Shown here piece by piece: positions 2,104-35,436 of a stretch of DNA of 64,000 nucleotides. The position numbers were made by a program, and so were the translations under genes. Origin of the DNA: Pseudobutyrivibrio sp. OR37 (GTDB lineage Bacteria; Bacillota; Clostridia; Lachnospirales; Lachnospiraceae); NCBI RefSeq assembly GCF_900113655.1, contig NZ_FOQF01000003.1, positions 62,001 through 126,000 of the forward strand, written 5' to 3'. Within the stretch, counting starts at the first letter, position 1; each line of letters begins with the position of its first letter. A model generated the notes under the pieces. The model did no database searches, was not told where the DNA came from, and saw only the letters and a program-made list of their open reading frames with translations.

Positions 2104-2202
2104 AGTCCGCAATTTATTACGTTAACAAGCATTATTATTCTTCATTCGACTAACATGTCTCATTCAGAACAATAATAGCTTATTAACTATAAATTGCTCT
2201 TC
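2104..2202 (-). repeat. Hairpin element A (A/GTA family), nrdD-nrdG gap
   Basis: A long imperfect palindrome fills the gap between nrdD and nrdG (stem 2109-2197). Read on the minus strand, GCAATTTAT pairs with ATAAATTGC. An asymmetric internal loop follows (A on the left, GTA on the right). GTTAATAAGC then pairs with GCTTGTTAAC, a bulged T comes next, and an AT-rich inner stem ends the arm. The apical loop is TGAGACATGTTAGTCGA (2146-2162). The 3' end reads CGGACTA directly before the nrdG ribosome site. The same layout occurs at 8.2, 10.4, 10.5 and 35.3 kb. Whether it acts as RNA or is a passive small mobile repeat is not known. Confidence 0.7.
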
Positions 2203-2207
2203 TATAT

Positions 2208-4331
2208 TTACATTGATTTACGATCGGCTATTTCTGCCATTTTTGCTTCATTTAGACGAGTGTCGCCCTTTACACGTGAATAAGATAAATATCCATTCAT
2301 GCGGTCAATCTTTGTAAGATTCTTGCTACCGCATACTGGACAAACATCCATTTCAAGCTCTTGATGACCACAATCATCGCAATATGAAAGGGAAAGATTA
2401 ACTCCTTCGTAAAATCCCTTATCCATGGCACGACGAACTAAAGTCTTAACTGCTTCACGGTTATAGTTGATTGGATAACGAACATATTGGATTTTACCAC
2501 CGTTTGAAAGCTCCCAGAAGCGTCCCTCTAAATCCTGCTTTTGGATTGGTGTAATATCCTCTGTAACATGGCAATGGAATGAATTAGATACATAAGGTCT
2601 ATCCGATACATTCTCTACAAGGCCATATTTATTTCTGAACTGTTTAATCTGTAAGCCACAAAGATTTTCAGCTGGTGTACCGTAGATAGCATAAAGATTG
2701 CCATCCTCTTCCTTAAACTGATTAACCTTTTCGTTTATATGCTTAAGAACCTCGATAGCGAAATCTCCATCCTCAACTAAAGATTTGCCATTGTAAAGCT
2801 CCTGAAGCTCATTAAATGCTGTGATTCCAAAGGATGCTGTAGCTGCCTTAAGAAGTGGCTTAATCTTATCGTGGAAGCCAAGGTGTCCACCATAGAAGCC
2901 GCCTTCGCAATATGCAAGTGGGTTTGTAGATGCACGCATCTCACCAAGGTATGCATAGGTACGAATGTGAAGCTTTCTAATCATCTCCAAATAGTAATCA
3001 AGCACCTCGTAGAAATCTCTAGATTCCTGACGAGCTTTTGCGAGAATCATAGGCAGATGAAGCGATACTGCACCAATATTGAAACGTCCAATAAATACAG
3101 GCTCATCATTTTCATCAGCCGGCTTCATGCCGCCTCTTTCATACCATGGTGAAAGGAAGGCACGACATCCCATTGGAGAAATAACCTTGCCGTATTTTTT
3201 GTACATGCTAGCAATATAGCCTTCTCCCGTAAGTGAAAGCCAATCAGGATACATAGTCTTTCTAGAGCAATCAATACCTGCTTCGAAAACATCCTCGAGC
3301 TCTTTTCCAGGACCATGGAGATTTTCATCATAAAGGAAAACAACCTTAGGGAAAAGAACTGGCTTTTTGAAGCCTGGCTTGCCCTGGCCGATTGAACGAA
3401 CCTTAAGGCATGCCTTAGATGCCATCTTTGCAAAAACGCTAGTTCCAAGTCCAATTGTAACAGTAATAAATGGATAATCACCACGAGAAGATGCAACTGT
3501 GTTGAACTTGTACTCCCACCCCTGGAAGCCCTGCTCCATCTCACGCTGAACCTCAGCCATAGCAACTTCTTCAGCCTTATCCTTTTCAATTCCAAGATTT
3601 ATGTATTTTTCAACATATTTGTCGTATGATTTCTGAGCATATTTTTCAAGAATCTGATCTGCCTGTGGAATAGTGAAACCACCGTACTGCTGGCTGGCCG
3701 CAGAAAGAACGATATCACCGATAACATCAAATGCTACATCAAGGCTCTTTGGCTCGTTGTAGAAGATGTTACCCATTTCAAAACCGCCCTCAAGTACTGA
3801 TTTAACATCAAACAAGCAGCAGTTCATGGTATCACGTCTGGCGTTCATATCATGAATGTAAATATATCCATCACGGATAGCCTGAATTTCTTCTGTTGTA
3901 AGGAAAAACTTTTTATAAAGCTCACGGTTAAGCTCATTAAAGATTAATGAACGTTTTGTAGAGACAAGCGCAGAATCTGTATTTGAATTCTCCTTGTCAC
4001 CGATGTACATAATGTTTTGAGACTTCTTGTAAACATCATCAAGCATTTGTACGAAATCCTGCTTATAGTTTCGATAATCCCTGTAAGACTTTGCCACCAT
4101 AGGATTAACACGTTCCAAAGCACCTTCAACAATATTATGCATTTGCGCAATCTCAATTTTCTCAAGGCCAAGCTCCTCCACTCTTTCCTCAACAAATTGA
4201 CAAATAAACTGCTCCTGCTCAGGTGTAAATTTAACAAGCACACGTGTAGCTGACTTACCAACAGCATCTACAACCTTTTGTACGTTAAAAGGCTCCAGTG
4301 CGCCGTCCTTCTTAACAACAAATTTTTCCAT
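2208..4331 (-). CDS. nrdD: Anaerobic (class III) ribonucleoside-triphosphate reductase
   Basis: Reduces ribonucleoside triphosphates to deoxy forms in the absence of oxygen with a glycyl radical made by NrdG. ATG 4331 is preferred over the GTG three bases earlier because GGAGG then sits 5 nt upstream; this gives 707 residues. An N-terminal ATP-cone (about 3-95, KKDGALEPFN) provides allosteric control. The C-terminus has four zinc-binding cysteines (C651, C654, C664, C667) and the glycyl radical site G680 in RMNGYLS, the usual position. Promoter-proximal gene of an nrdD-nrdG-dut unit controlled by NrdR-like boxes. The protein is oxygen-labile, which fits a strict anaerobe. Confidence 0.97.
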   Translation of the reverse strand: MEKFVVKKDGALEPFNVQKVVDAVGKSATRVLVKFTPEQEQFICQFVEERVEELGLEKIEIAQMHNIVEGALERVNPMVAKSYRDYRNYKQDFVQMLDDVYKKSQNIMYIGDKENSNTDSALVSTKRSLIFNELNRELYKKFFLTTEEIQAIRDGYIYIHDMNARRDTMNCCLFDVKSVLEGGFEMGNIFYNEPKSLDVAFDVIGDIVLSAASQQYGGFTIPQADQILEKYAQKSYDKYVEKYINLGIEKDKAEEVAMAEVQREMEQGFQGWEYKFNTVASSRGDYPFITVTIGLGTSVFAKMASKACLKVRSIGQGKPGFKKPVLFPKVVFLYDENLHGPGKELEDVFEAGIDCSRKTMYPDWLSLTGEGYIASMYKKYGKVISPMGCRAFLSPWYERGGMKPADENDEPVFIGRFNIGAVSLHLPMILAKARQESRDFYEVLDYYLEMIRKLHIRTYAYLGEMRASTNPLAYCEGGFYGGHLGFHDKIKPLLKAATASFGITAFNELQELYNGKSLVEDGDFAIEVLKHINEKVNQFKEEDGNLYAIYGTPAENLCGLQIKQFRNKYGLVENVSDRPYVSNSFHCHVTEDITPIQKQDLEGRFWELSNGGKIQYVRYPINYNREAVKTLVRRAMDKGFYEGVNLSLSYCDDCGHQELEMDVCPVCGSKNLTKIDRMNGYLSYSRVKGDTRLNEAKMAEIADRKSM

Positions 4332-4381
4332 CACAACCTCCGGGTTTTATCTAAAAATAATTGCATTTGTATATAATATTC

Positions 4382-4467
4382 TGTCAATATCTAGTTTCCC
4401 ACAAATAAAAAACTACTAGATATTGTGTTGATAGAATTATACTACCACCACATTATCTAGTAGTCAA
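4382..4467 (-). promoter_or_regulatory. nrdD promoter with three NrdR-box-like sites
   Basis: On the minus strand a TATAAT (4436-4441) lies 20 bp after TTGACT (4462-4467); the spacing is long. Three related 16-mers surround it: 4448-4463 (between the -35 and -10), 4413-4428 (reads ACACAATATCTAGTAG on the minus strand, close to the published NrdR consensus acaCwAtATaTwGtgt) and 4382-4397 (weaker). The last two centres are 31 bp apart, the usual three-turn spacing of NrdR box pairs. NrdR represses nrd operons when dATP is high. The assignment is by motif only. Confidence 0.65.
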
Positions 4468-4501
4468 TAGACTTCTGTACCACAAAATAAAGTTTCACAA
4501 T

Positions 4502-5491
4502 TTAGTCATAATAACACCCTACATCTTTATGATTTAAATCACCATAGGTGGCATAAGTAAGGCACTTTAGCCCACCTTTACAGAATGAGCAATAGTCACA
4601 ATCCATACATTCATCAGGGGTAGTATCATCTCTAAGCTCCTGTAGCACCCTAGAATTATAATATAAATCCATCATGTTATCCTCTAGCAGATTCCCAACC
4701 ACTATAGGCATACGTCTACAAGGAACTAAATCACCATTTTCCATGACAGTCAGCAAGGTATCTCCTGCTGTGCAGGAATATGGCAAATTATTAGTCTTTA
4801 AAAATTGCAGGGCACGATATAGCGCCACTTCTGTTTTACAGCCCTGTCTTCTTAGTGCAAAGCTCTCCCTTGTGATTATATCAAGATACTCTTTCGTTTG
4901 CTCTTTATTCATGCAAAGGTTAACTTCTGGAGAATTCAATGGAATATATCTATCCGACCATACAGTGTCCACTCCATATCTTTTTGCAAACTTAACGACC
5001 TTTGGAAGCTCTTTATAATTGAGAGCCGTTGCAGTAAAAGATAAAGAAACATAAACATTGTACTTTTTCAGCAGCTTTACAGCCTTTGCAACTTTAGAAT
5101 AAACGCCCTTGCCTCTTATATAGTCGTTAGTTTTCTTGCTGCCTTCCAGGCTCACCTGAACGTATTCTGGGCCATAACTGGCAATCCTTTTTGCTATCTC
5201 ATCAGTGATAAGCGTGCCATTTGTAAGAATCGAGAAACTATATAAATCTCTATCCTTCTTAAACTCTTCTAAGAGCTCAAAAAAATGAGGAGAACACAGT
5301 GGTTCCCCTCCTGTTATATTAATATGTCCTTTTATTTTCTGCTTCTTAAGAAGCTGTCTGTATTGATTTAAAATGTCAAAAAGCTGCTCACTATTAAGTG
5401 AAACAGGTGCATGACCTTCTTGATAACAATGTAAGCATTTAAGATTGCAGCTTTCACTGATATGCCATTGCAATACAAATTCTCTTACCAT
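4502..5491 (-). CDS. Radical SAM/SPASM domain protein, coupled to the DUF2207 gene
   Basis: Radical SAM enzyme of the peptide-maturase type; its substrate is unknown. Start ATG 5491 has GCGGAGG six bases upstream, and that ribosome site lies inside the Gly-Cys tail codons of the preceding gene. The two genes overlap by 7 nt, so translation is probably coupled. The 329-residue protein has the 4Fe-4S motif CNLKCLHC at C15, C19 and C22, and a C-terminal SPASM-like set of eight cysteines (C240, C258, C295, C298, C301, C304, C310, C326) for auxiliary clusters. SPASM enzymes commonly modify ribosomally made peptides or proteins. The neighbour's periodic Cys tail is the obvious candidate (inference). 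An alternative is a stand-alone heme- or cofactor-related SPASM enzyme. No terminator separates it from the nrdD promoter region. Confidence 0.85.
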   Translation of the reverse strand: MVREFVLQWHISESCNLKCLHCYQEGHAPVSLNSEQLFDILNQYRQLLKKQKIKGHINITGGEPLCSPHFFELLEEFKKDRDLYSFSILTNGTLITDEIAKRIASYGPEYVQVSLEGSKKTNDYIRGKGVYSKVAKAVKLLKKYNVYVSLSFTATALNYKELPKVVKFAKRYGVDTVWSDRYIPLNSPEVNLCMNKEQTKEYLDIITRESFALRRQGCKTEVALYRALQFLKTNNLPYSCTAGDTLLTVMENGDLVPCRRMPIVVGNLLEDNMMDLYYNSRVLQELRDDTTPDECMDCDYCSFCKGGLKCLTYATYGDLNHKDVGCYYD

Positions 5492-7209
5492 GAGCCGCCT
5501 CCGCCGCAAGAAGAACATCCACCACCACAAGATGAGCATCCGCCGCCACATCCTGAACTAGAGCTAGAGCTAGAACCGCTACTTGTAGATGTATCTGTGT
5601 AATATACAGAGCTTGTTATATTATCTGTATATTTAATATATCTATTTGTTGCATTTGCAGTGTAATCATATTTCTGCACAAGCTTTTTTGATATACCCAA
5701 TATAAAGGCATAAGGAAGGATCTCATCAAAGTAATCATGGTCGTCTTTTATCTTAGCCTCTAGATCCTGCTTCTTGATTGTAGATAAATAATTCTTGTAT
5801 GCTTCTATCCTAGCTATAAGCTCTTCACCATAAGCAGATTTTTTAGGAGTTTTGACTGCAAAAAAACCAGTAGCTATTACTGATAAAAAAGCAGGTAAAA
5901 AGAACCATCTAAGGGTTGGATCCATATCCTCTGACCAAATATAGGCAACGCATATCCCTATTGAAGAAATCAAAAACAAAAAGCTTGAAATCATAAACTC
6001 AACATAGGATGCAATATTGTAAATCTTAGAATCGAATTTCTCCTCTAACATTTTATTAAGCTTACTATTGAGCTTACGTATACGAGTATCCTCAGCCGGA
6101 ATAACATTGTAACCATTTTTAAAAAGCCCGTCATATACAAGCTTTTCTGCATCGGACAATGCGACCTCGCTCTTGTTTACTTTTTGTAATGTCAGCTTCT
6201 TTTTGCTACTTGGATTCTTGATTCGGATATACCCTTTGGTTGCCAGCTGAATGATTACTGTAATAAGTAACAGTTGGCCACTTCCACCATAAATATATCC
6301 CATTTCAACAGCTTCAAGCCCACCAACATTAATTCCTGATACATCACCTTTGTCAAACAAATCACTGTCTTTGTTTTTATTCCAAAAGAAAAAGCTAACT
6401 AAAAGACTAAGCATACACAATGCGCTTAATACAAATGCAGTTGTCTTGTAATTAACCTGAGCAGCTTCAAAATAACCGTCTGGCAACTCCACATCCACAG
6501 TAAGTGCGCCATTAAGGTTATAATCCTTTGACACCTGAGCTACAATAGTATTGTCCTCGACTGTATAATCCACGTAAGAAGTAATATCTTTTTTACGCTT
6601 TTTATCTGCAAAGAATCTAACAGCGCTTGTATCGTCAATCTTCTTTGGCAAATTTATAGTGACCTTGGCTCCATTTATTTCTGTGCCCCAGTAATCACCA
6701 AAAGCATGAAAAATCAGTTCGTCGAAGCCCTTATAAATATCTCCGCCCATATCATAGTCATATGAAATCACATACTCATGGATTCCTGTATCTAAGGTTT
6801 CATAGGCGCTTCCAATTTTGACTCTTTGCTTGCCTTTAATTGTATCTACTTCATAGTCCTCATTTTCGCAACGTAGATTTGTTATTACCCCTCGTCTAGA
6901 TTTAGTTTTACCATCCTTTGAAGTATATTTAAGCCATTCTGGAACAAAACGAAAAATCCCATGATGCCCAGTTTCATAGAAATTAACACCGATGATTTCT
7001 ATAACATGAATCTGATTTTTTGTATTTACATCCAGATTTACTTCATAATAATCGATTGTAAAACCGTCGGCTTTAGAATCGTTTTTTCCTGACGTAGCAC
7101 TAATGTGACTAAAAACCATGATTCCAGCCGAAATTAAAACAATTATTCCTAAAATAAAAAAGGTTACACCGAAGAAGTGCAACCATTCCTTACATCTTTT
7201 GAACATCAT
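5485..7209 (-). CDS. DUF2207 membrane protein with periodic Cys/Gly C-terminal tail
   Basis: Membrane protein of the DUF2207 family, whose function is unknown. Residues about 14-35 form an N-terminal membrane anchor. A large extracytoplasmic beta-rich domain follows to about 245, then a membrane segment near 252-271, a cytoplasmic winged-helix-like part (IQLATKGYIRI), and two more membrane segments near 405-450. The tail is a Ser/Gly linker followed by five cysteines (C554, C558, C561, C565, C568) spaced x3, x2, x3, x2 and separated only by Gly or Ser, ending GGGGSW. Gly-rich tails ending in GGSW are familiar in DUF2207 proteins; regular cysteines are less so. ATG 7209 or 7206 can start translation behind GGGAG, overlapping the gpsA end by 20 nt. 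The radical SAM/SPASM gene begins within the tail codons. Confidence 0.85.
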   Translation of the reverse strand: MMFKRCKEWLHFFGVTFFILGIIVLISAGIMVFSHISATSGKNDSKADGFTIDYYEVNLDVNTKNQIHVIEIIGVNFYETGHHGIFRFVPEWLKYTSKDGKTKSRRGVITNLRCENEDYEVDTIKGKQRVKIGSAYETLDTGIHEYVISYDYDMGGDIYKGFDELIFHAFGDYWGTEINGAKVTINLPKKIDDTSAVRFFADKKRKKDITSYVDYTVEDNTIVAQVSKDYNLNGALTVDVELPDGYFEAAQVNYKTTAFVLSALCMLSLLVSFFFWNKNKDSDLFDKGDVSGINVGGLEAVEMGYIYGGSGQLLLITVIIQLATKGYIRIKNPSSKKKLTLQKVNKSEVALSDAEKLVYDGLFKNGYNVIPAEDTRIRKLNSKLNKMLEEKFDSKIYNIASYVEFMISSFLFLISSIGICVAYIWSEDMDPTLRWFFLPAFLSVIATGFFAVKTPKKSAYGEELIARIEAYKNYLSTIKKQDLEAKIKDDHDYFDEILPYAFILGISKKLVQKYDYTANATNRYIKYTDNITSSVYYTDTSTSSGSSSSSSSGCGGGCSSCGGGCSSCGGGGSW

Positions 7210-8221
7210 AACACTCCCACTCTAAATCTGATGTTTCATCTTTCTTTGAACGAGTCATCAGCTCATAGACCGCATCCTTTGCAGCCATGCCATCGAAAAG
7301 AACTGCATTTACCACATCAACGATAGGCATTTCAATATCATATTTTTCTGCCAATTTTTTAGCAGCTTTAGCTGAATAAACGCCTTCAACAACCATTGCT
7401 ACCTTTTCCATGGCCTCATCTTTGGACATCCCCTGACCAATGTAAAATCCTGCCATTCTATTACGAGAATGCATAGATGAGCATGTGACAATTAAATCGC
7501 CAACACCAGTAAGTCCAGCTAATGTCTCTGCCTGTCCACCCATTGCAACAGCAAGCTCTGAAATTTCTTTAATACCACGTGTAATCAGAGCCGCCTTTGC
7601 ATTATCTCCAAAACCAAGACCATCTGACATACCTGCAGCAAGAGCGATGACATTTTTAAGAGCAGCTCCCACCTCGATACCCTTAACATCAGGGGACGAA
7701 TAAACTCTAAAATATTTATTCATGAAAAGATTCTGTACGAATAGAGCTGTCTGCCTATCGGTTGAGCCAGCTACAACTAAAGTAGGCTTGAATACAACTA
7801 CCTCTTCTGCATGGCTTGGACCTGATAGAACACATATCTTCTTATCAGCTCCGAGTACATCTTCTAATATCTCTGTTTGAGTATATAAGGTATCCTCTTC
7901 AATACCCTTTGTTACAGTAATAAAAATCTGATTTGAATTAACAAAATCCTTAACCTTTTCTGCAGTCTCTCTTGTAGCCTTTGAAGGAACTGAGAACAAA
8001 ATAACATCTGCTGATTTTGCAGCAGATTCAATGTTGGCAGTAAACTCCATAGACTTTGGAAGCTTTACGCCTTTAATTTTATCGCTGGTATGAGTATCGT
8101 TCATCTGGTCTACCTGTGACTGTCTGTGTGACCAAACCTTTACCTCATGACCATTCTTATTAAGCATAACAGCCAGGGCAATGCCCCAGCTACCTGCACC
8201 AAGTACACTAATTCTTGCCAT
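7190..8221 (-). CDS. gpsA: Glycerol-3-phosphate dehydrogenase [NAD(P)+]
   Basis: Reduces dihydroxyacetone phosphate to sn-glycerol 3-phosphate, the backbone for phospholipids. The 343-residue protein has the Rossmann motif GAGSWGIALA at its N-terminus, the SGPSHAEEV segment, the AALKNVIALAAG region with the catalytic Lys, and GLTGVGDLIVTC. It sits after plsY, which acylates its product, so two successive steps of phosphatidic acid synthesis are co-transcribed. Start ATG 8221 has AGAGG, which itself overlaps the GACTA end of hairpin element D. The 3' end overlaps the DUF2207 gene by 20 nt. Confidence 0.96.
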   Translation of the reverse strand: MARISVLGAGSWGIALAVMLNKNGHEVKVWSHRQSQVDQMNDTHTSDKIKGVKLPKSMEFTANIESAAKSADVILFSVPSKATRETAEKVKDFVNSNQIFITVTKGIEEDTLYTQTEILEDVLGADKKICVLSGPSHAEEVVVFKPTLVVAGSTDRQTALFVQNLFMNKYFRVYSSPDVKGIEVGAALKNVIALAAGMSDGLGFGDNAKAALITRGIKEISELAVAMGGQAETLAGLTGVGDLIVTCSSMHSRNRMAGFYIGQGMSKDEAMEKVAMVVEGVYSAKAAKKLAEKYDIEMPIVDVVNAVLFDGMAAKDAVYELMTRSKKDETSDLEWECYDVQKM

Positions 8222-8225
8222 AAAT

Positions 8226-8341
8226 TACCTCTAGTCTTTATAAAAATTACGCTGGTTACGGCAACAATCTCTATATTACTACGTCGCGAGATTGGCTCCT
8301 TTAGTAATATAGAGATTGTTACCTACCAGCTGCCCGTTACT
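8226..8341 (-). repeat. Hairpin element D (A/GTA family), plsY-gpsA gap
   Basis: Nearly the entire gap is one hairpin. On the minus strand GCTGGT pairs with ACCAGC (8251-8256 with 8325-8330). The A/GTA internal loop follows, then a stem of about 20 bp including AACAATCTCTATATTAC. The apical loop is GGAGCCAATCTCGCGAC (8283-8299), similar to those of elements A, C and F. A T5 run and AAAGACTA precede the gpsA ribosome site AGAGG. The T-run after the stem could also give partial termination. Pairing is kept although the sequence differs from the other copies, which suggests selection for structure. Confidence 0.75.
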
Positions 8342-9001
8342 TTACGCTCTTGTCTCTGGGTGGAATGAAAACTTATTCTCGGTGCCGTTAAGTAAGCGTC
8401 CGATGTTTGCATGATGAAGTGCAATTGAAAGAGCTGAAACAATACAGCAAATAATTACAACTTCTTTAAGCTGTCCACCTGGATACTTTTCAGATAAAAG
8501 TCCAAGGCATGCTGCAACGATTATTTCAATTGCAAAGGAAAGCTCACCTATAATAGAACCAAGTGATACATATCTTGTTAAAGCAACAAGACCAATAAAT
8601 ACAACTGCAGGAATTGGAATTCCCATTGGGAAAAGTGCAATGATGAAGCCTAAAGTAGATGCAACACCCTTGCCACCCTTAAAATGTAAATAACAAGGAA
8701 AATCGTGTCCAAGTACACAGCCCAAACCTGCATATACCATATAAATATTTACGTTTTCTACGAATCTTCCAAATGTAAGCCAAATGAAAAATACAGCTAT
8801 AACACACTTAAAGCAATCCCATGCAAGTGTAATAAGACCTGCAGGAACACCTAAGTTTCTCATAGTGTTGGTAGAACCTAAATTACCGCTACCAACCTTT
8901 GTTAAATCAATGTTCTTTGATTTTCCGATGAAATATCCCATCAGAACCATTCCAAAACAATACCCAATAATAATTGCTAAAATTCTCCCCACTACAGCCA
9001 T
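8342..9001 (-). CDS. plsY: Acyl phosphate:glycerol-3-phosphate acyltransferase
   Basis: Integral membrane enzyme that transfers a fatty acyl group from acyl-phosphate (made by PlsX, encoded at 36.5 kb) to glycerol 3-phosphate, giving lysophosphatidic acid. The 219-residue protein has several hydrophobic helices and the family motifs GSGNLGSTNTMR (about 37-48) and HFKGGKGVAS with the preceding HDFPCYL. Its ATG at 9001 shares one base with the der stop codon (TAATG), so the two are translationally coupled. The next gene, gpsA, makes its acceptor substrate. Confidence 0.96.
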   Translation of the reverse strand: MAVVGRILAIIIGYCFGMVLMGYFIGKSKNIDLTKVGSGNLGSTNTMRNLGVPAGLITLAWDCFKCVIAVFFIWLTFGRFVENVNIYMVYAGLGCVLGHDFPCYLHFKGGKGVASTLGFIIALFPMGIPIPAVVFIGLVALTRYVSLGSIIGELSFAIEIIVAACLGLLSEKYPGGQLKEVVIICCIVSALSIALHHANIGRLLNGTENKFSFHPETRA

Positions 9002-10326: not shown

Positions 10327-10343
10327 ATCTTACCTCTTTCTTT

Positions 10344-10445
10344 CCTAGTCCGTAATCAGTTACGTTCACAAGCATTATAATTCTCCGTTCAGCAGAACGC
10401 TTCTCTTGAGAATCATAATAGCTTGTGAACTACTGATTACTCATC
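10344..10445 (-). repeat. Hairpin element B (A/GTA family), before der
   Basis: Stem from 10352 to 10440. On the minus strand GTAATCAGT pairs with ACTGATTAC, the A/GTA internal loop follows, GTTCACAAGC pairs with GCTTGTGAAC, a bulged T follows and an AT-rich inner stem closes on a loop around AGAGAAGCGTTCTGC. Compared with element A, almost every stem base that changed is matched by a change on the opposite arm, and the bulged T, the A/GTA loop and one G-T pair are in the same places. CGGACTA closes the element just before the der ribosome site. Confidence 0.75.
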
Positions 10446-10451
10446 TATAAA

Positions 10452-10552
10452 CTGTAGAACAAAATCTAGTTAACAATGTATTTCAATTCTGAAGGAGACA
10501 TCAGTCGACGTAAGAATTCGGAATCATTGTTAACGTGAGATTTTGAACACAG
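10452..10552 (+). repeat. Hairpin element F (A/GTG variant), inverted copy next to element B
   Basis: Second hairpin in the same gap, 12 bp from element B and 8 bp from the DUF512 stop. Read on the plus strand, CAAAATCT pairs with AGATTTTG. An A/GTG internal loop follows (GTG where the others have GTA), then GTTAACAATG pairs with CATTGTTAAC, a bulged T is followed by an inner stem, and the apical loop is GGAGACATCAGTCGAC (10494-10509). The asymmetric features show that it points opposite to the operon and to elements A to D. The two copies stand as an inverted pair, which is easier to explain by insertion of a repeat than by a cis-acting leader. Confidence 0.65.
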
Positions 10553-10560
10553 CGTAAATT

Positions 10561-12233: not shown

Positions 12234-12251
12234 ATAAACCTCAATTCTAAT

Positions 12252-26984: not shown

Positions 26985-27156
26985 CTTTTGCATATTCTTG
27001 CATTTTCGAATTATATTTATACATTTTGCATTAAAAATAGCGGTTTTATAGGATGTTTTATTCATTTAAACGCCTATCACTTTAAAGCGGTGGTGTATTG
27101 TATCGATAAAAAAACAATCTATATTTAATTATGTTAGAAAATCCCTAAAAATAAGC

Positions 27157-27189
27157 AAAAAAGGAGCCTGATAAAAATCAGACTCCTTT
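27157..27189 (-). terminator. Terminator after khpA
   Basis: Minus-strand AAAGGAGTCTGA and TCAGGCTCCTTT form a 12-bp stem (one G-T pair) with a T-rich loop and a run of T's after it. It begins 5 bp after the khpA stop and ends the ylxM-ffh-rpsP-khpA operon. Confidence 0.85.
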
Positions 27190-27193
27190 GTCT

Positions 27194-27430: not shown

Positions 27431-27459
27431 CACTATTATCCTTTTCCTTTCGAGTTATC

Positions 27460-27702
27460 TTACTGAACACCTGCCTGCTTGAAAAGTCTTGCTACTGTCT
27501 CTGTTGGCTTTGCACCGTTAGCAATCCACTTCTTAGCTGCTTCAGCGTCAACTGTTACTTCAGCTGGCTCCTGGTTAGGATCGTATGTACCGATTTCATC
27601 GATGTTTCTACCATCACGAGGTGCTCTTGCATCTGCAACTACGATTCTGTAGATAGGTCTCTTCTTCTGTCCCATTCTCTTTAATCTAATCTTTACTGCC
27701 AT
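27460..27702 (-). CDS. rpsP: Ribosomal protein bS16
   Basis: Small-subunit assembly protein, 80 residues. [26 protein letters not shown] and [15 protein letters not shown] are the family signatures, read in parts. An AGGAGG site precedes ATG 27702. It stands between ffh and khpA as in many Firmicutes, but trmD and rimM, which often follow, are 8 kb away on the other side of the opp genes. Confidence 0.97.
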
Positions 27703-27743
27703 TTTTAATTTCCTCCTAAATTATAATACTTTAAATGGTCTTG

Positions 27744-29084
27744 TTAAAATGGGAAACGCATACCACGTCTGCCTTTACCCATTATATTTGGCATCTGCTT
27801 CATCATTTTTTTCGATTGCTCGAACTGTTTAACAAAGCGGTTTACCTCTGCTATATCTAAACCAGCTCCAGCAGCAATTCTGTGCTTTCTGCTAGGATTT
27901 AGTAATTTTGGATTCTCGCGCTCAGCTGGTGTCATTGAAAGAATGATTGCTTCAATATGCGCAAGCTTTTTATCATCTACAGCGCCTTCTATCTGAGCCA
28001 TCTGGCTTGCATTAATACCTGGCATCATTCCAAGAATGGAAGTCAAACCACCAAGCTTTTTCATTTGCTCCATAGATGTAAGATAATCATTGAAATCAAA
28101 GGAAGCTTTCTTTACCTTTTTAGATAACTGAAGGGCTGCATCTTTATCGATTTCTGCCTCTGCCTTTTCAATTAGGGAAAGTACATCACCCATGCCAAGG
28201 ATTCGGCTAGCCATTCTGTCTGGATGGAACTGCTCTAAATCTGAAAGCTTTTCCCCCATACCAGCATAAAGAATAGGCTTTCCTGTAACGGCCTTAATTG
28301 AAAGTGCCGCACCACCTCTTGTATCACCATCAAGCTTTGTGATGATAACACCATCAATGCCAATTTTTTCATCAAAGGTAGATGAAACATTAACAGCATC
28401 CTGACCTGTCATGGCATCTACTACCAATAAGGTGTTGAGGATATTGATATTTTTCTTTATAGATGCAAGCTCATCCATCATATCCTCATCTATATGAAGA
28501 CGACCAGCTGTATCGAAAATGACTACATCAAAGCCGTTCTTCTTAGCGTAATCCATAGCTTCGCGGGCAATCTTTACTGGCTTTTCCTTATCGCCTAAGG
28601 AGAACACCTCAACCTCTTGCTTTTTACCATTTATCTGCAACTGCTCTATAGCGGCTGGACGATAAATATCACAAGCAACAAGAAGTGGTTTCTTACCACG
28701 CTGCTTTACCTTACCTGCAAGCTTTGCTGTGGTGGTAGTTTTACCAGCACCCTGGAGACCAACCATCATGATTGTGGTGATTTCTCCACCCTTGCCAAAG
28801 GTAATATCTGTAACTTCAGAGCCCATAAGATTAACAAGCTCTTCGTTAACAATCTTTATAACCATCTGTCCAGGGTTAAGACCATTCATTACATCAGAAC
28901 CAATGGCGCGCTCTGTGACAGTGTTTGTAAACTGTTTTACAACTTTGAAATTAACATCAGCTTCTAGAAGAGCCATTTTAACTTCCTTAAGTGCAGCTTT
29001 AACATCTGCCTCAGAAAGTCTACCTTTGCTCTTAAGGCTTTTAAAAACCCCTTGAAGCTTCTCTGAAAGAGAATCAAATGCCAT
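27744..29084 (-). CDS. ffh: Signal recognition particle protein Ffh
   Basis: GTPase of the signal recognition particle that binds signal sequences of nascent membrane and exported proteins with SRP RNA. In 446 residues: helical N domain, G domain with GLQGAGKTTTTAKLA (near 107), DTAGRLHID, TKLDGDTRGGAA, and the Met-rich M domain ending KKMMKQMPNIMGKGRRGMRFPF (in parts). It lies 3 bp from ylxM and pairs functionally with FtsY at 30.8 kb. Confidence 0.97.
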   Translation of the reverse strand: MAFDSLSEKLQGVFKSLKSKGRLSEADVKAALKEVKMALLEADVNFKVVKQFTNTVTERAIGSDVMNGLNPGQMVIKIVNEELVNLMGSEVTDITFGKGGEITTIMMVGLQGAGKTTTTAKLAGKVKQRGKKPLLVACDIYRPAAIEQLQINGKKQEVEVFSLGDKEKPVKIAREAMDYAKKNGFDVVIFDTAGRLHIDEDMMDELASIKKNINILNTLLVVDAMTGQDAVNVSSTFDEKIGIDGVIITKLDGDTRGGAALSIKAVTGKPILYAGMGEKLSDLEQFHPDRMASRILGMGDVLSLIEKAEAEIDKDAALQLSKKVKKASFDFNDYLTSMEQMKKLGGLTSILGMMPGINASQMAQIEGAVDDKKLAHIEAIILSMTPAERENPKLLNPSRKHRIAAGAGLDIAEVNRFVKQFEQSKKMMKQMPNIMGKGRRGMRFPF

Positions 29085-29087
29085 AAA

Positions 29088-29423
29088 TTATAATTCCTCT
29101 AAAATTAATTTGGATATACTAGCTATCTGTGAAAGTGTATCTGTATCAGCTTCCTTTTCAGTAAGCTCGTTGATACGAAGTACATCCTCTCTAATAATCA
29201 TAAACTTTTCTACTAAGTGAAGCCTGTTTTCATAATCAGATAATAGCTTATCACAACGCTTTAAAATATCGTGAACAGCCTGACGAGATATAGAAAGTGA
29301 ATCGGCAATCTCTGAAAGGGATAAATCCTCATTGATGCTCATCTCGTATACACTACGCTGATGTTCTGTAAGTAACTCACCGTAGAAATCATATAAATAA
29401 CCTGATTTAATCTTATCTTCCAT
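29088..29423 (-). CDS. ylxM: YlxM family helix-turn-helix protein
   Basis: Acidic 111-residue protein with a sigma-70 region 4-like helix-turn-helix (LSEIADSLSISRQAVHDILKRCDK, about 36-60, read in parts). YlxM precedes ffh in most Firmicutes and has been reported to affect SRP activity in streptococci. The start at ATG 29423 has AGAGGAG 5 nt upstream and lies just after a strong promoter. Confidence 0.93.
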   Translation of the reverse strand: MEDKIKSGYLYDFYGELLTEHQRSVYEMSINEDLSLSEIADSLSISRQAVHDILKRCDKLLSDYENRLHLVEKFMIIREDVLRINELTEKEADTDTLSQIASISKLILEEL

Positions 29424-29447
29424 TGTGCTCCTCTTATGACCTCATAT

Positions 29448-29476
29448 AATATACTATATAAAAAAAGAGGTGTCAA
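29448..29476 (-). promoter_or_regulatory. Promoter of ylxM-ffh-rpsP-khpA, -35 inside the ilvA terminator
   Basis: Minus-strand TTGACA (29471-29476), exactly 17 bp, then TATATT (29448-29453), 25 bp before the ylxM start. The TTGACA is part of the right arm of the ilvA terminator and the T-tract forms part of the spacer, so the terminator and promoter share DNA. Confidence 0.75.
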
Positions 29477-29496
29477 GTGTTTTTGCTTGACACCTC
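29460..29496 (-). terminator. Terminator after ilvA
   Basis: Minus-strand AAAGAGGTGTCAAG and CTTGACACCTCTTT form a perfect 14-bp stem around an eight-base loop, followed by T7. It ends the plsX to ilvA transcription unit. Confidence 0.9.
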
Positions 29497-29499
29497 TTT

Positions 29500-29542
29500 C
29501 CTCATCCTCCCCTTCAAAGTACCTTCCTTCTCTGGGGAAGGC
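29500..29542 (-). repeat. GC-rich hairpin repeat, copy 1 (after ilvA)
   Basis: On the minus strand GCCTTCCCC...AGGAAGGT...GGGGAGGATGAGG follows the ilvA stop codon directly. The same skeleton follows galE at 41.2 kb. Similar CCTTCCCC/GGATGAGG repeats are common near gene ends in gut Clostridia (from memory, not checked). It could add to termination or be a small mobile repeat. Confidence 0.55.
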
Positions 29543-29544
29543 TA

Positions 29545-30756
29545 TTATAATGAAGTTCTTACTATTTTTGGTCTGTAGCCTGCTTTATCTAAAGCTTTTA
29601 TGATTTGCTCCTTGTGCTCTGTGCCGAAAGCTTCAAGTGTAATACGAAGCTCAACAGCTGCGGAACGATTGGTTGTAACAAACTGATTATGCTCAAGCTT
29701 GATAACATTTCCCTGTTCATCCGCTATAACCTGAGAAACTTTGGCAAGCATACCTGGCTTATCAGGAAGCAAAACAGAAACAGTAAAGATTCTATCACGG
29801 AAGATAAGTCCCTGCTGTACAACAGATGACATTGTAATAACATCCATATTGCCGCCAGAAAGAACTGAAACCACTCTCTTATCCTTAAATCCAAGATGAT
29901 TAAGGGCCGCTACTGTAAGAAGACCTGAATTTTCAACAACCATCTTATGATTCTCTACCATATCAAGGAAGGCAACGATAAGCTCATCATCATCAACTGT
30001 AATAATCTCATCAATGTTTTCCTGAAGATATGGGAAAATATTGCTACCTGGTGTCTTAACAGCTGTACCATCAGCAATAGTATTAACACTCTTAAGTGTT
30101 GTAACTTCACCCTTTTCAAAGGATGCCTTAAGGGATGCAGCACCACTTGGCTCTACACCAATAACTTTTATCTTTGGATTAAGAAGCTTTGCAAGTGTAG
30201 AAACACCTGTTGCAAGTCCGCCTCCTCCAATTGGAACTAAAATATACTCTACAAGTGGAAGCTCCTTGAAGATTTCCATTGCAATTGTACCCTGACCTGT
30301 AGCCACAGCCAAATCATCAAATGGATGAATAAAGGTATATCCATGCTCATCTGCAAGCTTATATGCATATTCACATGCCTCATCATATACATCGCCATAA
30401 AGAACAACCTCTGCTCCATAGCTCTTTGTACGATTAACCTTAATCAAAGGTGTTGTGGTAGGCATAACAATTGTAGCCTTAACACCATATTTGCTGGCTG
30501 CATAGGCAACGCCCTGTGCATGGTTACCAGCCGATGCTGTGATTAAGCCCTTTGCACGCTCTTCCTCAGAAAGTGTGCTTATTTTGTAATAGGCGCCTCT
30601 AAGCTTGTATGCACCAGTAAGCTGCATATTTTCTGGCTTAAGGTAAACCATATTACCGCATTTCTCACTAAAATAATCACTGTAAACTAGCTTTGTCTCA
30701 TGAGTAACTTCTGTTACGATCTTTGAGGCTTCTTCAAATTTGTCCAATGTAAGCAT
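29545..30756 (-). CDS. ilvA: Threonine ammonia-lyase (PLP-dependent)
   Basis: Deaminates threonine to 2-oxobutanoate for isoleucine synthesis or threonine catabolism. In 403 residues: the PLP Lys is K51 in GAYKLRGA, ASAGNHAQGVAY binds substrate and GGGGLATGV holds the phosphate. The last 80 residues form an ACT-like regulatory domain (VSVLLPDKPGMLAKVSQVI). One ACT domain of this length is the tdcB/short ilvA type rather than the longer two-domain biosynthetic form, so the symbol could also be tdcB. It sits 23 bp after ftsY at the end of a cell-envelope and chromosome operon, an unusual companion, and has a strong terminator. Confidence 0.92.
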   Translation of the reverse strand: MLTLDKFEEASKIVTEVTHETKLVYSDYFSEKCGNMVYLKPENMQLTGAYKLRGAYYKISTLSEEERAKGLITASAGNHAQGVAYAASKYGVKATIVMPTTTPLIKVNRTKSYGAEVVLYGDVYDEACEYAYKLADEHGYTFIHPFDDLAVATGQGTIAMEIFKELPLVEYILVPIGGGGLATGVSTLAKLLNPKIKVIGVEPSGAASLKASFEKGEVTTLKSVNTIADGTAVKTPGSNIFPYLQENIDEIITVDDDELIVAFLDMVENHKMVVENSGLLTVAALNHLGFKDKRVVSVLSGGNMDVITMSSVVQQGLIFRDRIFTVSVLLPDKPGMLAKVSQVIADEQGNVIKLEHNQFVTTNRSAAVELRITLEAFGTEHKEQIIKALDKAGYRPKIVRTSL

Positions 30757-30779
30757 AATTAATCTCCCTCTTGTTTGTC

Positions 30780-31709
30780 TTAGCCTTCAGCGTAGAATAA
30801 AGCATCCACAAATTCATCTGCGTTGAATTTCTCTAAGTCGTCAATAGTTTCTCCTACACCAATATATTTTACTGGCAATTTTAACTCAGATTGTATTGCA
30901 ATTGCAATACCCCCTTTAGCAGTTCCATCTAATTTTGTTAAAACAATACCAGAAATATCTGTAACCTCAGAGAATTCCTTAGCCTGAACTAAGGCATTTT
31001 GACCAGTTGTACCGTCTAAAACTATAAGTGTTTCGCGATAAGCCTCTGGGAACTCTTTTGAAATTGTATTATTAATCTTAGAAAGCTCATTCATAAGATT
31101 CTTTTTGTTATGAAGTCGACCTGCTGTATCTACCAAAAGGACATCAACCCCTCTTGATTTAGCAGCATGAACCGCATCATACACAACTGCTGCTGGATCA
31201 GAGCCTTCTGGACCGCCAACGAAATCAACACTTGCTCTATCGGCCCATTCCTTAAGCTGATCAGATGCAGCCGCTCTAAAGGTATCGGCTCCAGCCACCA
31301 TAACCTTCTTGCCGTTTGCCTTAAGCTTTCCTGCAAGCTTGCCAATTGTGGTAGTTTTTCCAACACCATTTACTCCAATTACAAGTACTACAGATGTCTT
31401 TTTCTCAAAATCAAAGGCAGTCTCACCAAGAGCCATCTGATTTTTAATTTCATTAATGAGAAATTCCTTGCATTCAGAAGGCTCCTTGATGTGTTCCTTT
31501 TTAACAGCATCCCTTAAATCATCAAGGATAGTTTCTGTAGTACGTACACCAATATCTCCCATAATCAGAACCTCTTCCAGCTCCTCATAAAAATCATCAT
31601 CGATATTGGTAAATCCATTGAAAATGTAATCCATGGATTTAATAAAATTATCTCTTGTCTTGGTCAGGCCCTTAATAAGGCGCTGCCAGAAACCAATCTT
31701 TTCTGCCAT
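30780..31709 (-). CDS. ftsY: Signal recognition particle receptor FtsY
   Basis: Membrane-associated GTPase that docks SRP-ribosome complexes at the Sec translocon. The 309-residue form lacks the long acidic N-terminal A domain of proteobacteria, as usual in Firmicutes. The N domain is followed by GVNGVGKTTTIGKLA (near 113), GADTFRAAA, DTAGRLHNKKNLM and TKLDGTAKGGIA. It is 15 bp from smc, the conserved rnc-smc-ftsY order. Confidence 0.97.
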   Translation of the reverse strand: MAEKIGFWQRLIKGLTKTRDNFIKSMDYIFNGFTNIDDDFYEELEEVLIMGDIGVRTTETILDDLRDAVKKEHIKEPSECKEFLINEIKNQMALGETAFDFEKKTSVVLVIGVNGVGKTTTIGKLAGKLKANGKKVMVAGADTFRAAASDQLKEWADRASVDFVGGPEGSDPAAVVYDAVHAAKSRGVDVLLVDTAGRLHNKKNLMNELSKINNTISKEFPEAYRETLIVLDGTTGQNALVQAKEFSEVTDISGIVLTKLDGTAKGGIAIAIQSELKLPVKYIGVGETIDDLEKFNADEFVDALFYAEG

Positions 31710-31724
31710 GTTGCCTCCAGATGA

Positions 31725-34700
31725 TTAGTCATCCAACTGTGATTCAATAAGATTTACAGAAACAAGAGCAGATATACCCTTTTCCTGCATGGTGATACCA
31801 AACAATCTATCAGCAGCATTCATGGTACCACGTCTATGAGTAATAACAATAAACTGTGTATTCTTTGTAAGCTTGTGTAAATAGCCTGCAAATCTATCTA
31901 CGTTTGCATCATCCAATGCCGCCTCAATCTCGTCAAGAAGACAGAATGGTGATGGCTTAAGATTCTGAATTGCAAATAAAAGTGCGATAGCTGTAAGGGA
32001 TTTCTCACCACCGGACATCTGCATCATATTGATAAGCTTCTTTCCTGGTGGCTGAGCATTAATTATAATACCTGTCTCAAGAAGATCATCCTCATCAACA
32101 AGTGCAAGTGAACCATGTCCACCGCCAAACAATTCCTTAAAAGCCTTATCAAACTCACGCTGAATATCTTTAAAGCCTTCAGCAAACTGCTTTCTCATTC
32201 CTTCGTCCAGCTCGTCAATGATTCTGATAAGTGAAGCCTCTGCCTCAACCAAATCATCATGCTGTCCCTTAAGGAAATTATATCTTTCTGAAAGTTCCTT
32301 AAATTCTTCAATGGCATTTACATTTACATTGCCCATTGAACGAATTGCATTTTTTATTTTTGCAGCATCCTTTTTCATCTGATCTAAATCAGTGTACTCA
32401 GGGTCCTTTAATTCCTCAGCAGAATGATATGTAAGCTCATATTCATTCCACATATAATTATTCTGACTTGAAATTGCATCAACAATCTTTTCATGCTGCG
32501 AATCCAATCTGTAGATTTCCTTATCAAGCTCAGAAATTCTATCTGAAATTTCCTGACGCTGCTCGAAGAAATTCTTATGAGAGCTATTAAGCTCTTCACG
32601 CTTAGCTGTAGCTTCTTTGATTTCCTCCTCAAGCTGTCCAAAGGAATCATCAGATGCTGCGATTGTAGCCTTTATTTCTTCAATTCGATTCTTTTTATTT
32701 TCAGTTTCTTCTTTTGTAGACTGAGCATTTTCTTTGATGTTAGCAATATCACTGTCACATTTTTCAATCTCAGAAAGTACACGGTCTAAGTTCTGCTGAA
32801 CGAAATCAACCTTCTGTCTAGCATTAGCCTCTTCAATCTGAACCTCAGACATAGTTCTATTGACAGAAGTCTCCATGTAAGTCTTTTCATCTACTTCATC
32901 AGAAAGTTTTGCGATTTCCGCCTTAAGCTCTGCTTCCTTAGCCTCGGATTCATTCTTTTCGAATTCGATTTCTTTTCTGCCAGCTGCGATTTCAGTAAGC
33001 TGTGCTTCAAGCTCTTCGCTTTCTCTAGAAAGACCTTCATAAGCTGTAAGACTTTCCTTCTTTTGCTCGTTAGCCCTATCAAGACCTAACTTTGCTGTGT
33101 TAAGAGCAATGGCTGCTTCGTTTAACTTAGCTGTGTTTTCTTCTCTATCAGAATCAAGCAAAGCAGCAGCTGTTTCAATTTCACCAGCTCTATTTTTAAG
33201 CTGATCAATTTCCTCGGAAATAGCATCAAGCTTTGTTTCTAATTCTTCGATTTCACGGTTACGGCCGAGAAGATTAGATTTATTCTTAAAATGACCACCA
33301 GTCATTGAGCCACCTGGGGCCAGGTATTCACCATCAACAGTGACGATGTGAATACTGTAGTTGTTTTTCTTGGCAAGAGCAATAGCCGAATCAATATGAT
33401 CTGTAACAACAACTCTTCCTAACAAATAAGCAACTACGCCGTCGAATTTGCTGTCACAGCTAACAAGCTCTGACGCAAGACCAAGAACACCTTTTTCTTT
33501 TAAGACTTCAGTCTTCTTGAAATTACCTCGTCCATCAACAGATGTAAGTGGAAGGAATGTGGCTCTACCAAGCTTGTTTTCCTTAAGAAAGGCAATAAGC
33601 TTTTTAGCGCTGGACTCATCTGCAGTAACAATATTTTGGATGTTACCACCAAGTGCTGTTTCGATGGCCATCTCATATTTCTTTTCTACATGAATAAGAT
33701 CAGAAACAACGCCCTCGATACCATCGATTTTGCCCTTCTGCTCCATTATCTTACGAGTAGAATTGCCATAGCCCTCGTATCGCTCTGCAATATTCTTTAC
33801 GGATTCAAGTCTTGTCTGAACACGGGCAAATTCATCCTTTTTCGCCTGGAGCTTTTCAGTATTCTCCTTCCCCTTCTGCTTCCACTCAACAGCCTTTGCA
33901 GAAAATTCTTTGTCCTTATCCTGTAATTCAATAAGTAAATCTTGAGCCTTCTTAAACTCTTCCTCTGCCAGAGATACGGCTACATCCAAATCTTCTTCAC
34001 GAGTCTTACGCTCTAACAATCTCTGAGTAAGCTTTGCTTTACGGATATTAGTCTGCTCTAGCATTGTCTCAAGACGCTGCTCCTTAGACTTAATTGAAGC
34101 CCTATTATTAAGCAATTCCATAATAGCCTTGTTATCAGCTTCAATTTTCTCATTGTTTGCATTAATTGCAATCTGCAATTCGCTGTAATTATTCTTAACT
34201 GATGTAAGACGCTCTACAGCCTCCTCTAAGGTCTTATCAAGCTCTTCCTTTTCCTGCTTAAACTCATCTAACTGAGCTTGCTTTGTAGCCTTTTCTGATT
34301 CAATTTCAGCCACACGTGCTGCCAAGCTTTCATCAGTAGCATTTGCAGAACGAATCTGCTCTTCTAAAAGCAGGATTTCATTTTCAAGCTTTCCCTTGAG
34401 AAGTGTGGAGTCTGATTGATTTTTCTTGAGAGTTTCAATCTGCTCATCCAGACCTGTAATCTGTTCCTCTAAAGAATCGTATTTAGCACGAATCTCTTCC
34501 TGGGCAGTCTTGCTCTCTTCCATATGTTCCTTTGCAAGAGTTGTATTCTTTTCTACTTCATTTAAAGCGGCATTTAATCTATCAACCTCAAGCATAAATG
34601 AATTGACATCAATTCTTTTTAATTCTTCTTTATATTTTAAGTATTTTTTAGCATCCTCAGATTGCTTCTCTAAAGGCCCGATGCGACGCTCCTGCTCAGA

Positions 34701-35285
34701 TAGAATATCATTTACACGAACAAGATTTTCTCTTTCATTTTCAAGCTTCTTAACAGACGCAGCTTTACGCTTTTTGTATTTAACAATACCAACAGCTTCA
34801 TCAAAAAGCTCTCGTCTATCTTCAGGCTTACCAGAAAGAATTTTTTCAATCTGACCCTGTCCGATAATCGAATAGCCTTCTTTACCTACACCTGTATCAT
34901 AAAATAGCTCTGAAACATCCTTTAATCTACATGGTGTTCCATTAAGAAGATATTCGCTTTCTCCAGAGCGATATACTCTTCGCGCTATTGTTACCTCTTC
35001 GTATTCAACTGGAAGTACATGGTCAGAATTGTCCATTGTAAGGGCTACATAGGCGTAAGAAAGTGGCTTTCTGGCTTCTGTTCCTGCAAAGATGATATCC
35101 TGCATAGAAGAACCACGAAGCTGCTTAGCTGACTGTTCACCAAGAACCCATCTAACGGCATCCGCAACATTACTTTTACCTGAACCATTTGGACCTACAA
35201 TGCCTGTAATACCATTGTGAAATTCAAATTTCATCTTATTGGCAAAAGACTTAAATCCATATATTTCAATACTCTTTAGATACAT
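31725..35285 (-). CDS. smc: Chromosome segregation ATPase SMC
   Basis: Condensin-like ATPase that organises and separates chromosomes with ScpA and ScpB. The 1186-residue length is typical. The N-terminal head has Walker A GPNGSGKSN (near 32-40). Long coiled coils (about 165-500 and 680-1010) flank the hinge (about 515-665, with VVTDHIDSAI and APGGSMTGG). The C-terminal head carries the signature MSGGEKS and Walker B FCLLDEIEAALDD. ATG 35285 follows AGGAG, which touches the GACTA end of hairpin element C. The coiled-coil codons explain several antisense open frames. Confidence 0.97.
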   Translation of the reverse strand: MYLKSIEIYGFKSFANKMKFEFHNGITGIVGPNGSGKSNVADAVRWVLGEQSAKQLRGSSMQDIIFAGTEARKPLSYAYVALTMDNSDHVLPVEYEEVTIARRVYRSGESEYLLNGTPCRLKDVSELFYDTGVGKEGYSIIGQGQIEKILSGKPEDRRELFDEAVGIVKYKKRKAASVKKLENERENLVRVNDILSEQERRIGPLEKQSEDAKKYLKYKEELKRIDVNSFMLEVDRLNAALNEVEKNTTLAKEHMEESKTAQEEIRAKYDSLEEQITGLDEQIETLKKNQSDSTLLKGKLENEILLLEEQIRSANATDESLAARVAEIESEKATKQAQLDEFKQEKEELDKTLEEAVERLTSVKNNYSELQIAINANNEKIEADNKAIMELLNNRASIKSKEQRLETMLEQTNIRKAKLTQRLLERKTREEDLDVAVSLAEEEFKKAQDLLIELQDKDKEFSAKAVEWKQKGKENTEKLQAKKDEFARVQTRLESVKNIAERYEGYGNSTRKIMEQKGKIDGIEGVVSDLIHVEKKYEMAIETALGGNIQNIVTADESSAKKLIAFLKENKLGRATFLPLTSVDGRGNFKKTEVLKEKGVLGLASELVSCDSKFDGVVAYLLGRVVVTDHIDSAIALAKKNNYSIHIVTVDGEYLAPGGSMTGGHFKNKSNLLGRNREIEELETKLDAISEEIDQLKNRAGEIETAAALLDSDREENTAKLNEAAIALNTAKLGLDRANEQKKESLTAYEGLSRESEELEAQLTEIAAGRKEIEFEKNESEAKEAELKAEIAKLSDEVDEKTYMETSVNRTMSEVQIEEANARQKVDFVQQNLDRVLSEIEKCDSDIANIKENAQSTKEETENKKNRIEEIKATIAASDDSFGQLEEEIKEATAKREELNSSHKNFFEQRQEISDRISELDKEIYRLDSQHEKIVDAISSQNNYMWNEYELTYHSAEELKDPEYTDLDQMKKDAAKIKNAIRSMGNVNVNAIEEFKELSERYNFLKGQHDDLVEAEASLIRIIDELDEGMRKQFAEGFKDIQREFDKAFKELFGGGHGSLALVDEDDLLETGIIINAQPPGKKLINMMQMSGGEKSLTAIALLFAIQNLKPSPFCLLDEIEAALDDANVDRFAGYLHKLTKNTQFIVITHRRGTMNAADRLFGITMQEKGISALVSVNLIESQLDD

Positions 35286-35295
35286 TATTCACTCC

Positions 35296-35436
35296 TATAG
35301 TCCGCCTGAAAAATAGTCTTACTCTCGCTTGTTACGCAGACAATAATTAATCCTCTTACAGTCACTGGATGTTCCTTTCAGAGGATAAATCATTGTCTGC
35401 TACAAGCTATTTGTACGTATCTATTCAGGCTCATTA
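35296..35436 (-). repeat. Hairpin element C (A/GTA family), rnc-smc gap
   Basis: Longest clear member, stem 35304-35430. On the minus strand the outer GCCTGAA pairs with TTCAGGC. A less regular middle follows, then GCTTGT pairs with ACAAGC, the A/GTA internal loop, and GCAGACAAT pairs with ATTGTCTGC. An inner stem closes on the loop GGAACATCCAGTGAC (35361-35375). CGGACTA runs into the smc ribosome site. The extra outer stem makes it about 40 bp longer than elements A and B. From 35437 to 35489 nothing else is seen. Confidence 0.75.

Follow-up and report, generated by a model that had tools for sequence, protein, structure and literature searches.

Hairpins in the window and the genes beside them

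The window analysed here, a 64,000-nucleotide stretch of the genome of Pseudobutyrivibrio sp. OR37, contains five long intergenic hairpins, which we call A, D, B, F and C and which share an asymmetric internal loop of A opposite GTA. The source genome (hereafter G000) comprises 3.56 Mb in 81 contigs, and the window corresponds to G000:C58:62001-126000; other G-numbers denote genomes of the genus Pseudobutyrivibrio. The hairpins had been noticed from the letters alone in a preliminary description. Direct reading of the sequence, together with folding against shuffled controls, confirmed that they exist as described, with 0 of 200 shuffles as stable for each of the five elements.

Element A (2102-2205, minus strand) is a GTAG-type unit with a 9-bp outer stem between nrdD and nrdG, scoring 84.1 bits with covariance model R1 and 75.3 bits with model R2 (fold z −9.2). 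Element D (8241-8341, minus; 72.4 and 68.5 bits; z −7.1) lies between plsY and gpsA. Element B (10345-10448, minus; 80.6 and 87.0 bits; z −8.4) precedes der, and F (10451-10553, plus; 75.8 and 69.9 bits; z −5.9) stands beside it in the opposite orientation. Element C (35317-35418, minus; 76.4 and 70.1 bits; z −7.1) lies between rnc and smc, and sequence, fold and a scan for base hairpins place it within a second, outer hairpin, TGAGCCTG .. CAGGCGGACTA (35303-35432, minus), whose stem joins about 35303-35309 with 35424-35432. Relative to their genes, A, B, C and D read in sense and F reads antisense. Model R2, which was seeded partly by window copies, recovers all five at 68.5-87.0 bits; three weak reverse-strand echoes of the same elements follow at 12.5-21.2 bits, and nothing further in the window reaches E ≤ 1.

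NCBIfam assignments gave the gene orders nrdD-[A]-nrdG, plsY-[D]-gpsA (with PlsY 1.1 bits below its cut-off) and rnc-[C]-smc, and the gene on the far side of F and B from der encodes a protein resembling TIGR03279, under that cut-off. The genes downstream of A, D, B and C are nrdG, gpsA, der and smc, functionally unrelated as originally noted. A GACTA touching the ribosome site had also been listed as a feature of the elements. Because GACTA occurs in alleles that lack an element, namely AAGACTAGAGG before gpsA in G008 and GGACTAGGGAG before nrdG in G008 and G014, it is not element-specific. The rnc gene (35490-36194, minus), which encodes RNase III, is located upstream of C (here taken as 35303-35433), with C directly behind it; this enzyme would be the first suspect for cutting hairpins such as C.

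The repeated unit, its proposed host hairpin and its fold

BLAST searches with B and C detected related copies elsewhere in G000. Model R1, built from 27 copies, matched 66 places in this genome at E ≤ 1, of which 59 at E ≤ 0.001; 60 copies were used for context, the six omitted being reverse-strand echoes of listed places. The further copies that had been sought beyond the first five are thus numerous, both here and in relatives: 28 of 29 genomes of the genus, G000 included, have matches. The counts are 0 in G015, 1 in G017, 8 in G018 and from 20 to at least 137 in the others, the top value being a lower bound because it equals the number of candidates scored. With R2, the count was 147 copies in G028, from 150 scored candidates, and 50 copies in G001. 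Searching a collection of 84,980 species for the commonest core as an exact pattern gave 28 stretches, all titled Pseudobutyrivibrio; P. xylanivorans DSM 14809 and P. ruminis DSM 9787 are among the strains with copies. Among 397 genomes of the family from 334 genera, surveyed with R2 under stricter filters and 11 candidates scored per genome, only G000 and G021 matched, both of this genus, with no match in the 333 other genera; R1 matched the same two among 200 family genomes. In the window, no Rfam family reached its gathering score except a tRNA, and the three sub-threshold hits at B-F were implausible (best 17.6 bits against a gathering score of 50). Judged by search titles, no publication on a Pseudobutyrivibrio hairpin family was found. 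A phage or plasmid carrier of the B-F region was considered and rejected, as no phage or plasmid record matched. Copies may cluster in one gap, as at L083 (G000:C19:17000-22300), with two copies in a row at C19:20038-20245, and L104 (G000:C74:2900-7200), with tandem nested copies at C74:4912-5194.

We located the ends of the unit in 18 pairs of G000 copies with core identity of at least 0.80 (57 of the 60 copies were parsed). Outside A/GTA, identity was 1.00 at the first base and 0.89 and 0.78 at the second, and then 0.22-0.61. Because identity drops two bases outside A/GTA, the repeated unit is taken to be GTAG...GTAAC. A literal GTAG stands at the hairpin foot in 43 of the 57 copies, and since A and GTA stand 65-73 apart in the 27 seed copies, the unit measures about 72-80 nt. 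The outer stem, initially counted as part of the element, is local beyond its two innermost pairs and belongs, in at least one terminator, to a host hairpin.

This terminator lies between convergent genes at C42:34265, where 6 of 15 relatives were read. In G011 the place is taken by a terminator with a T run, AGCCACTTAGT-loop-ACTAAGTGGCT; its stem recurs in G006 and G014, where a unit replaces the loop. G000 and G004 carry the unit in a different terminator stem, G024 retains a unit stump and G008 has a plain terminator. The 84-base core at this place is 98% identical at another G004 locus, in yet another terminator stem. The bare terminator of G011 may never have had the unit or may have lost it. 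Because the same terminator stem is found both bare and carrying the unit, we read A/GTA as the joint between guest and host hairpins, a reading supported at this terminator, suggested at other sites and inferred for the rest. At C19:42242, G000 keeps ATATCTAG/CTAGATAT, part of a plain terminator in G024 and G004, and by our own reading 9 of the 10 convergent G000 copies have an extended outer stem, six of them then followed by a run of at least 4 T.

Between co-oriented genes, a common base is TTTAGATGAG-stem/stem-CGGACTA; the AUGA/GGA of the base hairpin resembles a kink-turn and may be one. Scanning the fetched sequence for this base hairpin gave 75 candidates, 51 with an A/GTA core and 24 without, the latter including some that are chance or nested and some that enclose GC-rich hairpins. 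One GC-rich hairpin, GCGCGAGCAAGAGGGCCCC...GGAGATGGCTTGCGGGAGC, lies in the window at 54931-55095 (minus) inside the base hairpin GTGAGGGG/CCCCCGGACTA; at the orthologous place, G004 has an A/GTA unit in the same base, and similar GC-rich hairpins occur in other bases. In some cases, the apex of one copy contains another copy. The nrdG site suggested that insertion creates the outer stem by copying the target flank in inverted form; this was rejected as a rule, because intercistronic copies have bases conserved beyond the stem and terminator copies retain the host stem.

Covariation was measured on alignment A2, which holds 99 of 118 dereplicated genus copies (the first 100 in the list minus one short sequence). 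Copies entered through a filter that demanded A and GT[AG] together with Watson-Crick pairing at 7 or more of the 10 inner and 4 or more of the 5 outer pairs; selection of copies thus accounts for A/GTA being present and for some of the paired percentage. Across 27 hand-written pairs, 93.2% of cells were paired (69.2 shuffled), 562 cells were changed on both sides (141.6 shuffled) and 79 further pair types occurred (67.0 shuffled). The covariation score was 0.600, compared to 0.161 shuffled and no more than 0.101 when the pairs were slid by 1 to 3, and 0 of 500 shuffles reached it; covariation is accordingly above background, as the preliminary description had asked, with the caveat that shuffle counts are no probabilities because the copies are related. 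The 60 unfiltered, model-found G000 copies show Watson-Crick pairs in 498 of 540 lower cells and 331 of 360 outer cells.

Of 124 non-redundant elements, 92 carry at the apex a motif of pair-GA-stem-loop-stem-GA-pair (2.1 on average and at most 7 in shuffles), and the apex stem varies with its pairing kept (GAC/GTC, AGC/GCT, ATC/GAT, AAC/GTT and others). The apical loops, described at the outset as related, are so in the sense of this covarying GA/GA motif; B belongs to the 32 elements that do not fit the strict pattern, some of them solely because the slice cuts the apex.

Mismatches in the same 124 copies point to the strand that folds. The lower nine pairs contain 40 G.T, no A.C and 67 other mismatches, and the upper stem contains 45, 2 and 67, giving 85 G.U versus 2 A.C for the inner stems together, with 134 others. 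The outer stem, with 4 G.T, 3 A.C and 1 other, shows no asymmetry. Counted as distinct contexts, G.T stands against A.C at 21 to 0 in the lower and 19 to 2 in the upper stem, and the 60 unfiltered G000 copies give 16 to 1 in the lower stem and 8 to 4 in the outer. A folded sense strand tolerates G.U pairs and not A.C. Because G.U far outnumber A.C in the inner stems, it seems to be the sense strand, in its folded form, that is constrained; C-to-T change with a strand bias could contribute to the asymmetry and would hardly produce the full ratio. Among the 134 other inner-stem mismatches, 95 are A.G or G.A, and 41 of these fall at lower pair 4. That pair (A2 columns 13 and 83) is a recurrent mismatch, unpaired in 36 of 99 rows.

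Placement, orientation and turnover

Gene context was taken from simple open reading frame calls, by which some neighbours are doubtful. The 60 G000 copies comprise 42 in sense between co-oriented genes, 7 antisense, 10 between convergent genes and 1 between divergent genes; 17 of the 42 sense copies are flanked on each side by at most 30 bases. In G001, where 39 of 50 copies were placed, 25 are sense, 3 antisense, 6 convergent, 4 divergent and 1 unassigned. Between co-oriented genes, the two genomes together have 67 sense versus 10 antisense copies (p 1.7e-11, ignoring shared descent). Stretches unselected for elements (1.03 Mb) held 19 placed copies, 15 sense, 2 antisense, 1 convergent and 1 divergent, none of them between lagging-strand genes, and 2 more at stretch ends. 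Avoidance of divergent gaps was dropped as a feature, since such gaps make up only 61 of 855 in unselected stretches.

Orthologous sites are variably occupied. The gap between plsY and gpsA, the site of D, is filled in 11 and without an element in 11 of the 22 genomes read (7 of 29 were unread). Before der, 20 genomes divide into 6 with B and F, 1 with B and a cut F, 4 with F alone and 9 with neither. Between nrdD and nrdG, 5 of 10 genomes are filled, 1 has an apex-deleted copy and 4 have none; between rnc and smc, 7 of 11 are filled and 4 are not, one of these with a remnant. G024 lacks two G000 copies, at C24:70970 and C24:73480, within flanks that are 97-99% identical. Three different elements occupy C24:70970, one in G000 and G004, one in G011 and G014 and one in G001; G006 and G026 have an unrelated repeat there, and G024 and G007 share the short gap GGAATAGGAGAATGG. 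Together with near-identical cores at different loci, this presence and absence at orthologous sites supports the first impression of a dispersed family.

The unrelated repeat in G006 and G026 is a relative of another family, CCTTCCCC...GGGGAAGGTGCCCCGAAGGGGCGGATGAGGG, that occurs in the window at 41220-41249 and 29522-29541 (minus). At the C24:73480 site, G007 (L237) shows the 3′ flank CAGGACTTCAGGACTTCAGGACCACAGGACTACAGGACTATAGG repeated several times behind a short copy, as if flanks expand in tandem.

Copies also change in place. The element at C19:39843 is inverted relative to G024, G004, G014 and G006, and the B-F pair is inverted in G014 and, on BLAST alone, perhaps in G026. At C24:76898, paired changes distinguish G004 from G006 twice, as TTTCT/AGAAA versus TTACT/AGTAA and as GAGAC...GTCGA versus GAATC...GATGA; such paired changes at orthologous copies could arise by exchange with another copy. 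Possible short duplications (TAA at plsY-gpsA, AACGG at C24:73480) are inconsistent between sites. The convergent gap of C19:39843 receives unrelated hairpin inserts in G011 (L391, 371 nt) and G028 (L401, 219 nt), the latter inside a terminator-like stem.

Interpretation and related systems

We tentatively favour, at a little short of an even chance, a genus-wide family of non-autonomous, REP-like hairpin repeats (REP, repetitive extragenic palindrome) that sit on host hairpins and are kept as mRNA hairpins, cut by RNases or shielding from them. The unit, a hairpin of about 72-80 nt with the order GTAG-stem-GA/GA apex-stem-GTAAC, would extend another hairpin by capping its tip, the host being either an intrinsic terminator or one of a small set of common intercistronic hairpins. 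Copies would be read into mRNA mostly in sense and, as covariation, G.U bias and sense bias suggest, be kept as folded RNA. The A/GUA and tandem-GA motifs may serve for recognition of the resulting intercistronic or 3′-end hairpins, which RNase III or another double-strand RNase would cut or which would block exonucleases; either way, neighbouring genes of one operon would obtain separate mRNA stabilities. Spread would probably depend on a putative structure-recognising recombinase. We infer that RNA, and not single-stranded DNA, is what folds and that the copies affect mRNA, for which ERIC (enterobacterial repetitive intergenic consensus) and NEMIS are analogous precedents (PMC2229807). The dispersal and the selection on structure proposed in the preliminary description, the latter now supported by the excess of G.U over A.C and by sense bias, are retained in this explanation, and GACTA and the outer stem beyond its two innermost pairs are removed from the unit.

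Several observations weigh against it. Most rows in the covariation test had passed a pairing filter, which inflates the paired percentage, and pairs with changes on both sides number 24, where shuffling gives 21.3 on average. Single-stranded DNA likewise tolerates G.T better than A.C and would give the same bias, so that the asymmetry fixes the strand and not the molecule. Because most genes are on the leading strand, some of the sense bias may come from replication; no more than 3 copies are informative on replication direction, and these 3, found between lagging-strand genes, are all oriented with the genes, one of the 3 near the boundary. Convergent gene pairs flank 10 of the 60 copies, and another 7 are antisense. 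Gain and loss are indistinguishable at most sites, and the bare terminator at C19:42242 may be a deletion product, because its inner stem resembles the unit ends. A related proposal, which we consider unlikely though worth stating, is that a mobile hairpin targets structure itself, inserting mostly in sense at the tips of terminators, intercistronic hairpins and its own copies, as single-stranded DNA or reverse-transcribed RNA, and so would leave nested mRNA hairpins that still terminate or are processed.

The repeats might instead be selfish mobile DNA of no benefit to the host, their hairpin kept as single-stranded DNA recognised by a transposase, as in the model of REPs and RAYTs (REP-associated tyrosine transposases), with sense bias arising from replication direction and the loss of harmful insertions. 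This explanation, possible if somewhat doubtful, is nearly as good as selection on mRNA hairpins; the main point of difference is what keeps up the sense bias. It accommodates the GTAG at the hairpin foot, described in PMC3733652 as the mark of REPs, as well as presence, absence and inversion at sites, copy numbers from 0 to at least 137 between genomes and neighbouring genes that share no common function. It must contend with the Y1 (RAYT-type) transposase family PF01797, which has no match at E ≤ 1e-5 in G000 and none in 19 of 29 genus genomes (10 of 29 match), and with the compensatory changes that continue in orthologous copies, though exchange between copies could mimic these. Nor was an autonomous, gene-carrying copy found: the fetched sequence, about 2.8 Mb counting overlaps, contained no pair of halves separated by more than 400 and at most 4000 bases.

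Covariation could also arise without selection, if template switching between the arms of a quasi-palindrome kept them complementary by mutation alone. Copies do invert in place, and the unfiltered outer stems remain Watson-Crick paired though variable, but arm copying gives no reason for G.T without A.C, nor for A/GTA and the GA/GA apex staying unpaired while the helices change, and we consider it improbable. Still less credible is a cis-regulatory RNA, a riboswitch or attenuator for downstream genes. The position before ribosome sites, conserved loop motifs and strong fold would suit one; the downstream genes are unrelated, 10 of the 60 copies stand between convergent genes, some orthologous sites lack the element and Rfam gives the window elements no match at gathering score, with implausible sub-threshold ones at B-F.

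If the favoured explanation is true, this repeat family, with up to 137-147 counted copies per genome, has been shaped as RNA inside mRNAs and takes its place at hairpin tips without the transposase known from REPs. The joint of guest and host would explain how a terminator takes in about 80 bases with its stem kept. The filled, empty and inverted orthologous sites within one genus make the question of selfish versus functional repeats directly testable.

Among known systems, GTAG-tagged REPs appear the nearest kind. The likeness lies in GTAG at one end, many intergenic copies, opposite-orientation dimers (B-F) and a location mostly between co-oriented genes. In PMC3733652, REP units measure 20-40 nt, compared to about 72-80 here, REPtrons can be lost, and GTAG repeats are catalogued from Proteobacteria, Cyanobacteria, Chloroflexi and the PVC group. 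The Pseudobutyrivibrio unit differs in sitting on a host hairpin and in its covarying helices. We do not file the family as REP because size and a resident Y1 transposase fail, and RAYT mobilisation in G000 was rejected on the same missing match. The unit ends are inverted repeats, as in a miniature inverted-repeat transposable element (MITE); because no target-site duplication could be fixed, the family is not filed there. Integron attC sites are recognised by structure rather than sequence and have bulged bases; no cassette arrays were seen here, and no search aimed at integrases was made.

ERIC and NEMIS/Correia elements are likewise intergenic, transcribed long hairpins, of about 107-155 bp, and PMC2229807 reports an orientation-dependent effect of ERIC on upstream mRNA and proposed RNase III cleavage of NEMIS. 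They differ in the short terminal repeats and target duplications tabled there, none of which could be fixed for the present family; the comparison was one of described features. BOX, RUP and SPRITE of pneumococcus are interspersed Gram-positive repeats that fold as RNA in 5′ and 3′ parts of operons; their phylogenetic range is different, and the words "covariance" and "compensatory" are absent from that text (PMC3049150). Within the known small mobile palindromic repeats, what sets the Pseudobutyrivibrio family apart is its placement at hairpin tips together with covariation on the sense strand.

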